Below are positions 5,083 to 58,418 of a stretch of 64,000 nucleotides of DNA, in pieces. Positions within the stretch are counted from its first letter, which is position 1; each line of letters begins with the position of its first letter. The notes beneath the pieces are model-generated. The model was given only the letters and a program-made list of their open reading frames with translations. It was not told the origin of the DNA and searched no databases. The stretch comes from Mucilaginibacter sp. OK098 (GTDB lineage Bacteria > Bacteroidota > Bacteroidia > Sphingobacteriales > Sphingobacteriaceae): positions 930,001 through 994,000 of the forward strand of contig NZ_FRCM01000001.1 of NCBI RefSeq assembly GCF_900142915.1, written 5' to 3'. The translations under genes and the position numbers were made by a program.

Positions 5083-5116
5083 AGTTGTAGTTGTTGTAAA
5101 CGTTGTAAGAGTTTAG
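5083..5116 (+). repeat. Short GTTGTAA-family repeat tract
   Basis: Just after the DUF4251 stop the words AGTTGTAG, TTGTTGTAAA, CGTTGTAAGAG follow each other. The same word family forms the hairpins at 26657-26734 and 33197-33331. This copy has only one arm. Confidence 0.6.
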
Positions 5117-5126
5117 CATTTAAAAC

Positions 5127-5155
5127 AAAAGAACCGTTTTTAGCGGTTCTTTTTG
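5127..5155. terminator. Bidirectional terminator between the DUF4251 gene and bioB
   Basis: A 10-bp perfect stem AAAAGAACCG / CGGTTCTTTT (5127-5136 and 5144-5153) has a 7-base loop and T-runs on both strands. It lies between convergent genes and can serve both. Confidence 0.9.
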
Positions 5156-5168
5156 TTTTATAATCTTG

Positions 5169-6185
5169 TTATATAACTTCGTTAATACTCATTTCCTTAA
5201 TCTCTTTTATCTCGTTTGGCCTTCCGTTCTTGAAAGCTTTACGCGGTGTTAACCCCAGCAGATCAAACATGGCCATATCGGTATCAAAGGACGGATTCGG
5301 CGTAGTTAACAATTTTTCACCTGCAAAAATAGAATTTGCACCTGCCATAAAACAAAATGCTTGTTCAACTAAACTCATTTCTGTGCGGCCGGCGGATAGG
5401 CGTACTACTGTTTTAGGCATAATAATACGGGTAGTGGCTATCATCCGTACCATATCCCAAACAGATACTCTGGGCTGATCTGCCAGCGGCGTACCCTGAA
5501 CCGGCACCAAAGCATTAATTGGTACTGATTCCGGATGTTTAGGTAAAGTTGAAAGGGTCTTAAGCATAGAAATGCGGTCTTCCACAGTCTCGCCTAAACC
5601 TATAATGCCGCCACTGCAAACAGTGATCTTTGCTTTGCGTACATGTTCTAATGTTTTTAAGCGGTCATCATAAGTACGGGTGGTTATAATACGCTTATAA
5701 TCATCCTCTGAAGTATCCAGGTTGTGGTTGTAGGCATACAAGCCTGCATCAGCCAATCGTTGTGCCTGGGCTTCGGTAAGCATGCCCAGTGTACAACATA
5801 CTTCCATATCTAACTCGTTTACAGCTTTCACCATGTCTATCACTTTGTCAAAGTCGCGGTTATCGCGTACTTCGCGCCATGCAGCGCCCATGCATAATCT
5901 TGATGCGCCGCCGTCTTTAGCTTTTTGCGCTACAGCAACCACTTCTTCCTTTGGCATTATTGCATGCACATCAACCCCTGTATTATAACGGGCCGCTTGC
6001 GGGCAATAGGCGCAATCCTCGGGGCAGCCACCTGTTTTAATTGATATTAACGAGCTGATCTGCACTTCTGAGTAATCTTTATTTTCACGATGCACAGAAG
6101 CTGCTTCATAAACCAGGTCTAACAAAGGCCTATGGTATATTTCCGCAATCTCTTCTTTTGTCCAATTGTATCTTACTTCGGTCAT
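5169..6185 (-). CDS. bioB: Biotin synthase
   Basis: A 338-residue radical SAM enzyme that inserts sulfur into dethiobiotin in the last step of biotin synthesis. The [4Fe-4S] cluster cysteines are Cys54, Cys58 and Cys61 (GGCPEDCAYCPQAARY), and YNHNLDTSEDDYKRIITTRTYDDRL is the typical BioB core that follows (YNHNLDTS shown as landmark). The auxiliary [2Fe-2S] cysteine and RLSAGRTEMS near the C-terminus are also present. Length is normal. No other bio genes are in the window. It is the last gene of a minus-strand run and starts 51 bp after the mgtE stop, so it may be read through from mgtE; no clear promoter of its own is visible. A shared terminator follows at 5127. Confidence 0.97.
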   Translation of the reverse strand: MTEVRYNWTKEEIAEIYHRPLLDLVYEAASVHRENKDYSEVQISSLISIKTGGCPEDCAYCPQAARYNTGVDVHAIMPKEEVVAVAQKAKDGGASRLCMGAAWREVRDNRDFDKVIDMVKAVNELDMEVCCTLGMLTEAQAQRLADAGLYAYNHNLDTSEDDYKRIITTRTYDDRLKTLEHVRKAKITVCSGGIIGLGETVEDRISMLKTLSTLPKHPESVPINALVPVQGTPLADQPRVSVWDMVRMIATTRIIMPKTVVRLSAGRTEMSLVEQAFCFMAGANSIFAGEKLLTTPNPSFDTDMAMFDLLGLTPRKAFKNGRPNEIKEIKEMSINEVI

Positions 6186-6236
6186 TCTATGCTTGTTTAG
6201 ATATATTCGTATTCTGTTTATTAGTTATATTAGTAA

Positions 6237-56921: not shown

Positions 56922-56949
56922 TTTTAATTAGTTTTTTATCGAGGTATTG

Positions 56950-58341
56950 TTAAATAATTTCTTTGGTTTGATCGGATAACTCCCCTTCCCATTTGCTCAC
57001 TACTGCGGTAGCCATGGCGTTACCCAACACGTTTGTGGCCGAACGTCCCATATCAAGTAGAGGATCAATCCCTATTATGAGAGCCAATCCAGCTTCCGGG
57101 ATGTTAAACATTGGCAATGTTCCTGCAATAACCACCAGTGATGCCCTTGGCACACCTGCTACGCCCTTGCTGGTAAGCATTAGTATAAGTAGCATGGTTA
57201 TTTGTTGCCCTATTGATAAATGCATATTATAGGCCTGCGCTAGGAATAACGAGGCAAAGGTCATATACATCATAGAGCCGTCAAGGTTAAATGAATAGCC
57301 GAGTGGTAAAACAAAACTTACAATTTTATTATTACAACCAAATTTTTCAAGCTCAAGCAATACTTTTGGATAAGCCGCTTCGCTGGTTGATGTACTGAAA
57401 GCTATCAGCATGGCATCTTTTATCCGGCTTACCAGGTTAAACACCCGCTTGCGCAACACAACAAAGCCCGCAAAAATAATTGCCATCCAAAGCACGGTAA
57501 GCGAAAAATAGAATTCGCCTATAAAAATAGCATAGGTTGACAGGATCCCTAAACCCTGTTTGGCTATAATAGCTGTTATGGCGCCAAACACAGCTAATGG
57601 CGCAAGCATCATTACATAGCCCGTTATTTTTAATATAACGTGTGCAATGGCATCCATTGCTTTAATAATCAGCCCGCCTTTTTCGCCAATTGCTGCTGTA
57701 GCTATGCCAAAGAAGATGGAGAACACCACAATCTGCAGGATCTCATTATTTGTCATGGCCTCAAAAAAGCTTCGGGGGAATACATGGTCAACAAAATCTT
57801 TTAAAGAGATCCCTGTTTTCTTGATCCCGGTAGATAAATGGCTGTCTGGCAATGGCAGGTGCATTTCCATGCCTGGCTTGAAAAGATTTACCAGCAACAT
57901 CCCAAGCAGCAGGGAAACCAGGGTAGCGCTTAAAAACCACAATAAGGTTTTACCGCCAATGCGGCCTACAGCCTTAATATCACCAACCTTTGCCACACCA
58001 ACCACCAGCGTTGAAAACACCAGGGGGCCGACTATCATTTTAATCAGGTTCAGAAATATATGGCTTAAAATAGTAAAGCCTTCCAGCTTATCCTCGCGGA
58101 GATCATCAGTGGCTTTACGCAGTACAACCTGTGCGCTGCGATTTGATTTTAACAGCTTAAAATCAGCGGTTGTGCTATCTTTTAAAGTGGATAAACGGGC
58201 ATCAATAACTTTGATATTAGCCTCTACCGTACTTATACGGGTATTAATGGCATTTATTACATACACATTATACAGGTAACCAGCTATTACCCCCGAAATA
58301 AGGGCAATAAAAATATAGAGCGTAAGTTTGCTTTTTTGCAT
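56950..58341 (-). CDS. Dicarboxylate/amino acid:cation symporter with a coiled-coil insertion
   Basis: A 463-residue transporter of the DAACS family (DctA/GltP type) that imports C4-dicarboxylates or Glu/Asp with Na+ or H+. Landmarks are LIKMIVGPLVFSTLVVGVA, AFSTSTSEAAYP (serine-rich hairpin), LPLGYSFNLDGSMMYMTFA and GVPRASLVVIAGTL. Unusually, about 60 residues of charged helical sequence (about 30-90, VEANIKVIDARLSTLKDS) lie between the first and second membrane helices, where relatives have a short loop. It would project into the periplasm and could form a coiled coil in the trimer. A TAnnTTTG promoter precedes it. Confidence 0.94.
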   Translation of the reverse strand: MQKSKLTLYIFIALISGVIAGYLYNVYVINAINTRISTVEANIKVIDARLSTLKDSTTADFKLLKSNRSAQVVLRKATDDLREDKLEGFTILSHIFLNLIKMIVGPLVFSTLVVGVAKVGDIKAVGRIGGKTLLWFLSATLVSLLLGMLLVNLFKPGMEMHLPLPDSHLSTGIKKTGISLKDFVDHVFPRSFFEAMTNNEILQIVVFSIFFGIATAAIGEKGGLIIKAMDAIAHVILKITGYVMMLAPLAVFGAITAIIAKQGLGILSTYAIFIGEFYFSLTVLWMAIIFAGFVVLRKRVFNLVSRIKDAMLIAFSTSTSEAAYPKVLLELEKFGCNNKIVSFVLPLGYSFNLDGSMMYMTFASLFLAQAYNMHLSIGQQITMLLILMLTSKGVAGVPRASLVVIAGTLPMFNIPEAGLALIIGIDPLLDMGRSATNVLGNAMATAVVSKWEGELSDQTKEII

Positions 58342-58358
58342 AGCGCTTGTTGAGCCTG

Positions 58359-58366
58359 CAAAAGTA
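58359..58366 (-). promoter_or_regulatory. -7 promoter element of the symporter gene
   Basis: The minus strand reads TACTTTTG, an exact TAnnTTTG match, 17 bases before the ATG. Confidence 0.6.
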
Positions 58367-58372
58367 GTAATT

Positions 58373-58418
58373 TGAGTTGATTAAGTTAATCAGGTTAAAA
58401 TATGTTGATTGAGTAAAA
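58373..58418. repeat. GTTGATT-family tract
   Basis: AGTTGATTAAGTTAATCAGG then TTAAAATATGTTGATTGAG, in the gap between two minus-strand genes. Words match those at 9161 and 42003. Confidence 0.6.

Follow-up and report, generated by a model that had tools for sequence, protein, structure and literature searches.

In a 64,000-nucleotide (nt) stretch of the Mucilaginibacter sp. OK098 genome (contig NZ_FRCM01000001.1, positions 930,001 to 994,000; the window), tracts of short degenerate words are scattered along the sequence. They are likely the ends and leftovers, for the most part relic ends, of a widespread and hardly noticed class of small mobile elements, because each of two tract pairs encloses an S23 gene or what is left of one, and this layout recurs in many phyla. 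An S23 element is probably composed of one S23 gene between inverted arrays of degenerate words of 7 to 9 nt, the predicted ligand of the S23 protein. There is good reason to regard the pairs 48411/48910 and 42003/42708 as such elements, and the other tracts of the window as likely leftover ends of such units. Direct observations concern the layout and its presence in many phyla, the tie between protein and words, the sense orientation, empty sites in relatives and the switching of word families at one site. The two pairs comprise the following features.

48411..48441, plus strand: 5' word arm of the S23 element, GCGGAAT family (sequence reading); begins 2 nt past the stop of gene 46706-48409
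48541..48882, plus strand: S23 / four-helix-bundle frame (PF05635, TIGR02436); annotated start TTG at 48607, in-frame ATG absent
48910..49030, plus strand: 3' word arm, a tract in sense and then two complementary ones, capable of forming a hairpin (sequence reading; Tandem Repeats Finder row 48960-49030)
42003..42040, plus strand: GTTGATT 5' arm of the dead S23 element (sequence reading; open S23 gene between GTTGATT arms in the orthologous gap of G064, locus L296)
42075..42482, plus strand: frame of 135 amino acids inside the arms of the dead element, without Pfam match
42590..42685, plus strand: S23 relic, final 32 codons (72% identical to the L296 S23 by tblastn, E 9e-13)
42708..42729, minus strand: 3' arm of the dead element, GTTGATT family (sequence reading, Tandem Repeats Finder)

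Between the CGGAAT tracts 48411 and 48910 lies a gene of the S23 family (23S_rRNA_IVP, PF05635; frame 48607-48882). This frame matches the Pfam profile with an E value of 1.9e-12 (47.8 bits, curated cut-off 33.8). The longer frame of 113 codons matches TIGR02436 with an E value of 7.6e-22 (77.6 bits, cut-off 24). This copy may be decaying, since its frame has no in-frame ATG start. By location it is not an intervening sequence (IVS) of rRNA: the element sits between protein genes, outside an rRNA gene. Ahead of the opening of the frame, at 48536-48545, an ATG is directly followed by TAA.

The GTTGATT tracts at 42003 and 42708 enclose a decayed S23 gene. At the same site, the relative G064 has an open S23 gene with GTTGATT arms, and the outer flanks of the two sites align at 77 and 81%. 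The G064 prmC is 79% identical to that of the window; only G018 (81%) was closer in the prmC comparison. Because an S23 relic lies between the arms and an open orthologue exists in G064, at least this tract pair is the remains of an S23 element. Another S23 protein gave a weaker match in the dead element (42363-42590, 33%, E 2.7e-5). An earlier note on this DNA had seen no transposase near the tracts; a lack of any nearby element is not supported in a window with an S23 gene within one pair and an S23 relic within another. Its suggestion of S23 as a correlated gene was the key lead.

The genome holds seven S23 genes. All seven lie between word tracts as judged by eye; two have the GAGATTA family in common and the rest have differing words. 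At E 0.001, S23 genes were present in 60/61 genomes of the genus and in 232/296 of the phylum. Loci from genus and phylum comprised the best match per genome and the seven of this genome. Inverted arms, defined by a flank inverted-repeat score of at least 24, were found at 33/36 genus loci and 14/30 phylum loci, compared with 20/427 control genes; one of the 67 loci (L039) was left out due to its short flank. A wide set comprised 80 named loci, the best 80 of at least 584 confirmed stretches. Their titles name Cyanobacteria, Alphaproteobacteria, Acidobacteria, Planctomycetes, Clostridia, Fibrobacter, Omnitrophica, Nitrospirae and candidate phyla. Inverted arms were present at 57/80 of these loci versus 7/151 shifted control windows taken from them. 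A period of 7 or 8 scored best above threshold in 65/80 (56 with period 7, 9 with period 8); among the 151 shifted controls, period 7 was obtained in 8 and another period above threshold in 3.

Plasmids also carry S23 genes (41 records, cyanobacterial for the most part). Eleven plasmid loci were read, ten cyanobacterial and one from Gemmatirosa, and eight had clear inverted heptamer arms. The arms were weak in L167 and L174, and the tracts of L175 were not inverted. On plasmids of two cyanobacterial species (L168, L171), the S23 gene with its heptamer arms lies in sense between cas6 and cas4. The search in phages gave no S23 match at E 0.001. Six short exact rRNA probes had no match in the fetched loci from L009 on and are a weak test for others.

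S23 type and word family are associated, and around the GTTGATT type the words switch sharply. Across 66 S23 loci, protein identity correlated with word content (r 0.41; none of 2000 permutations as high), with 84 pairs sharing outer flanks excluded. Words were shared by 28/44 pairs at 0.60-0.75 identity, compared with 15/1712 pairs below 0.5. All 15 loci whose S23 protein is 65% or more identical to that of L178 carry GTTGATT/GTGAGTG words; by their flanks, 11 of them belong to one orthologous gap and 4 lie elsewhere. Below 65% identity, 11/15 loci have GAGATTA words and 4 have others, including L312 with GTTGTAA (6 of the 36 matches to the L178 protein had no locus and were left out of the word reading). 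Several words of the window were thus recovered at S23 loci: GTTGATT, GTTGTAA (L312), GTTCATA (L159, L162-L165) and, in the window itself, CGGAAT.

S23 genes are usually oriented like their surroundings. Both neighbours are co-directional with the S23 gene in 80/85 cases with both known (91 frames from 87 loci, of which many are orthologous and one from G013 is counted twice) and in 60/76 of the wide set. In the window and two relatives, this applies to 280/604 ordinary genes and to 42/119 genes of at most 160 amino acids. The upstream gene ends with a TAG stop at 40/80 S23 loci versus 97/520 control frames, and in several S23 loci this TAG is part of the first word. The words themselves keep a preferred sense. 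Among arms scoring at least 10, the AG-type word consensus was present in 16/25, 13/15 and 34/49 of the 5' arms and in 1/23, 0/11 and 5/50 of the 3' arms. Gene-less tracts of the window occupy 12 co-directional, 3 convergent and 0 divergent gaps and track the overall gap counts (29, 5 and 3); therefore they give no orientation signal.

Close relatives differ in these elements. At fixed sites, one word family stands in place of another. G013 and G047, 93% identical around prmC, have different word families between the same flanks at four sites. A fifth site has a word hairpin in G047 and a hairpin of another kind in G013. Among the tracts detected in the two genomes (13 and 20), others are conserved in place, and some are ordinary coding repeats. 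G047, G017 and G041 lack two S23 elements that G013 has. One of the two sites has a GTTGATT hairpin beside a remnant of the other family in G047 and G017 and a third family in G041; the second has unrelated hairpins in all three. Hairpin families around CATTGCGAGG and CCCCCTAAAGGGGG fill like gaps and replace word hairpins in relatives (G013/G047 gaps, metF gap). A dispersed repeat of about 95 bp at the start of L147 lies beside a G013 S23 element and has dozens of matches in G047 and G017. Within a G013 GTTGATT hairpin, a frame of 390 codons (L180, 824-1997) resembles by eye a transposase of an insertion sequence (IS).

Turnover extends into a protein-coding gene. In prmC (window 10263-11183), two tract-bearing loops hold tracts in many orthologues (L046-L075). 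Loop 1 has CAGTTGG words in 9 of 30 sequences, AAAGTCA in 8 and AAGGTGA in 6; the remaining 7 contain none of eight tested words twice. Loop 2 (27 sequences; 3 unparsed) carries CCGAAAT words in 12 sequences, words of other families in 5 and none in 10. Two variable loops of PrmC are thus encoded by word tracts whose families differ per species at nearly constant length. Loops with and without tracts measure 17 versus 19 codons and 16 versus 16 codons. Net insertion was rejected, as loops with tracts are not longer than loops without. Replacement would fit the prmC loops better because their length hardly changes with tracts; selection on loop length might give the same result.

In the best-supported mechanism, the ends of the element would be read by its own protein. 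The S23 gene would be transcribed together with the host operon. The S23 ring is predicted to bind its own word array, perhaps with one word per subunit. The two relatives in the PDB have five chains each, and the S23p of Xanthomonas is described as a homopentamer (PMC4990558). The median arm with a score of 30 or more (39/66 loci) measures 31 nt, or four to five words; this fits one word per subunit without proving it. The element may spread by replacing hairpin or loop sequences in gaps, often at a TAG stop. Decay of the S23 gene would then leave the word arms in place. A bolder version is somewhat less likely than not: a pan-bacterial, as yet unrecognised, transposase-free class of elements in which each S23 pentamer would decode a private 7-nt array, one word per subunit, and use it to overwrite hairpins and loops. 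The heptamers of cyanobacteria, Beggiatoaceae, Xanthomonas and the present genome, as well as the rRNA IVS, would then be its traces.

Several observations weigh against S23 elements as the source of the tracts. The locus counts overstate the number of independent events, because many of the counted loci are orthologous to one another. The inverted-arm threshold is missed by 16/30 phylum loci and 23/80 loci of the wide set. The closest non-orthologous protein has the closest words at only 12/66 loci, and is within the top three at 20. Among the S23 loci found, none has CAGTTGG words. Many of the 72 GTTGATT matches of the genome are gene-less, and none of its seven S23 genes has matching arms. 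The S23 proteins have a median isoelectric point of 7.9 and 8.9, so that a strongly basic S23 was rejected. Finally, an advantage of pairing with the own arm is absent in three groups, where own arms scored 36.6, 41.7 and 17.3 versus 40.7, 44.3 and 16.8 for arms across the family; it is clear only in metF (39 versus 25). Own-arm scores were also higher in argG (43.8 versus 31.9) and AAAGTTG (36.0 versus 28.8), for which both matrices mixed two families. Exact stem pairing maintained by compensating changes was rejected on account of the three groups, metF excepted. The word rather than the exact stem seems to be kept, because arms from different loci of a family often pair as well as the own arms.

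The arrays might instead be regulatory or RNA-processing sites of the host, bound by S23 in mRNA and kept by selection as a regulon that does not spread. The sense orientation in operon gaps, the fixed strand of the words and the many tracts that G013 and G047 have kept at the same positions agree with such sites. So does purifying selection on S23, seen in one informative pair (nonsynonymous divergence dN 0.007, synonymous divergence dS 0.163; a second pair differs once). A regulon is nevertheless unlikely: relatives have no tract or a different family at the same site, the neighbouring genes, from prmC to cas genes, are of no common type, and decayed S23 copies exist. It is even less probable that another process makes the tracts first and S23 genes merely settle within them. 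Gene-less tracts do outnumber S23 genes, and IS-like and other hairpins also fill such gaps. Against this order of events stand the tie between S23 type and word family with its sharp switch between subclades, and the heptamer arms, their words differing by taxon, that surround S23 genes in many phyla.

That a reverse transcriptase copies the elements, in the manner of retroelements or diversity-generating retroelements (DGR), appears very improbable. S23 is distantly related to the DGR protein Avd: two of six S23 proteins matched the Avd profile NF033474 (E 1e-6 and 3e-5) at 24 and 29 bits, below the cut-off of 80, and the other four were unmatched. The present genome has one RVT_1 match (G000:C4:504456-504974), within a frame of 535 codons. 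No RVT_1 match was obtained in 27/61 genomes of the genus, including G013 and G047, whose tracts differ (RAYT-type transposases were not searched for). A reverse transcriptase acting as copier within the same genome was rejected on this basis. Plain replication slippage of random short repeats is hardly credible, and the earlier note had rightly judged slippage alone a poor explanation. Some arrays are long and perfect, as local expansion would produce. Slippage is contradicted by the S23 association, by the same words at unrelated sites, by their inverted order with a gene in the middle and by other families at the same site.

By profile, the S23 gene of the window is a member of the S23 / 23S_rRNA_IVP family, and by the Avd cut-off the elements are not DGR. 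Avd is a related small four-helix protein by a weak NCBIfam match; the difference lies in S23 scores below the Avd cut-off and in the genus genomes without a reverse-transcriptase match. Repetitive extragenic palindromes with their tyrosine transposases (REP/RAYT), miniature inverted-repeat transposable elements (MITEs) and other non-autonomous hairpins combine copies that carry a gene with many short hairpins that have the same ends but no gene. The S23 elements share this combination; unlike them, S23 has no transposase domain, and the ends are arrays of short words instead of one fixed repeat. TRAP is a ring protein binding UAG/GAG repeats. A functional analogy may exist, in that a ring protein would meet short words of constant core in tandem array; no sequence relation is implied, and binding by S23 is a prediction.

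Cyanobacterial short tandemly repeated repetitive (STRR) sequences are intergenic, tandem, degenerate heptamers. The tracts described here are similar, with period 7 as the best period in most scored loci, and differ by their tie to S23 genes. Heptamer repeats of the types TAACTGA (PMC4679880) and GGGAATC (PMC4692102) are likewise described as intergenic and tandem, with variable letters and often in convergent pairs. The terms 'S23' and 'four helix' are absent from the main text of both papers. The IVS of Coxiella 23S rRNA, as portrayed in PMC4990558, contains an S23p gene between complementary flanks, is able to form a stem-loop, replaces a small loop and is considered selfish, its function being unknown. 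An S23 gene between complementary flanks is also found in the elements studied here. They differ from the IVS described there by their location between protein genes, by many gene-less copies and perhaps by arms made of degenerate heptamer arrays. By title and abstract, none of the papers listed in searches of an open-access library, with few subscription journals covered, linked heptamer repeats with S23. Relative to this literature, the link between S23 genes and word-repeat arms appears new, each half being known separately. Heptamer tandem repeats and S23 proteins were each reported earlier without a known function, and the link joins both: it assigns a gene to the repeats and a predicted ligand, its own words, to S23. 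Many natural protein-word pairs are available for learning a recognition code. A small element in operon gaps varies among close relatives, and word tracts turn over within protein loops.

The remaining tracts of the window are as follows.

35791..35884, plus strand: gene-less GTTGATT hairpin, from a stop codon to shortly before the following gene (sequence reading, Tandem Repeats Finder)
51194..51241, plus strand: GTTGATT tract past a stop codon (sequence reading, Tandem Repeats Finder)
9158..9244, no strand assigned: GTTGATT tract and facing ACTAACC tract (Tandem Repeats Finder, strict detector)
58373..58418, plus strand: GTTGATT tract (sequence reading only)
26639..26738, plus strand: GTTGTAA hairpin (sequence reading, Tandem Repeats Finder, strict detector); same word family at S23 locus L312
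33197..33322, plus strand: GTTGTAA hairpin (sequence reading, Tandem Repeats Finder, strict detector)
5083..5110, plus strand: GTTGTAA tract (sequence reading, strict detector)
16168..16286, no strand assigned: GTTCATT hairpin (Tandem Repeats Finder, strict detector)
45850..45880, plus strand: GTTCATA tract, whose TAG terminates the preceding gene (sequence reading, Tandem Repeats Finder)
45926..45959, minus strand: CAGTTGG-family tract, reading AACTGCC (sequence reading, Tandem Repeats Finder)
11159..11230, no strand assigned: GTTCATT tract across the prmC end and CAGTTGG-family tract (sequence reading, strict detector)
15204..15243, plus strand: CAGTTGG tract within a glycosyltransferase gene (15111-16157, minus strand) (sequence reading, Tandem Repeats Finder)
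10633..10665, plus strand: CAGTTGG tract in prmC loop 1 (Tandem Repeats Finder, strict detector, orthologue comparison)
10839..10870, plus strand: CCGAAAT tract in prmC loop 2 (Tandem Repeats Finder, strict detector, orthologue comparison)
36310..36337, plus strand: CCGAAAT tract in a gap (sequence reading, Tandem Repeats Finder)

The tracts are real. Reading of the sequence found loosely repeated words at all 20 coordinates given by the earlier note. A strict detector (at least three words, one mismatch, spacing of at most 12) returned 10 tracts in the window, covering 8 of the 20 coordinates and two complementary arms; each of 25 dinucleotide shuffles gave 0 or 1. In the joined gaps of the window, 6 strict tracts were counted; 200 shuffles averaged 0.045 and never exceeded 1. 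Tandem Repeats Finder added seven tracts (15204, 35791, 36309, 42708, 45850, 45925 and 51194). Those at 42003, 58373, 11209, 48411 and 48910 were seen by reading only; a Tandem Repeats Finder row begins 50 nt past 48910. As the earlier note had stated, each tract is confined to one word family, and tracts are often inverted and occur at many sites. Word length, given there as 7-12 bases, measured 7 to 9 nt. The placement between genes applies to most tracts and is not quite right overall, because 4 of the 20 coordinates (10629, 10841, 11165 and 15204) lie inside genes. The outcomes named beforehand as refuting, tracts with identical words at identical positions across distant genera or a lack of enrichment, did not occur: there is enrichment, and different taxa have different words.

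In the whole genome of 7.2 Mb, GTTGATTNNGTTGATT occurs 72 times versus 2 for the reversed control pattern. Neighbours on opposite strands at most 500 bp apart were ordered GTTGATT...AATCAAC in 9/9 pairs, with none in reverse order. The pattern is patchy in the genus, being present in 20/25 genomes, a few of them with dozens of matches. Degenerate tandem repeats with a score of at least 12 and periods of 7, 8 and 9 numbered 9, 5 and 2 in the relative G013 and 16, 3 and 5 in the relative G047 (400 kb each); a single shuffle gave 1, 1 and 0, and the window itself 5, 4 and 5. The remaining periods from 4 to 13 had 0-3 repeats versus 0-2 in the shuffle. Long perfect arrays of a 9-nt GTTGATT unit, unlike the typical degenerate tracts, were found at G016:C4:42513-42627 and G000:C10:1251149-1251245. 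A gene for a tyrosine recombinase (Phage_integrase; window 11232-12131, minus strand) adjoins the prmC tracts.

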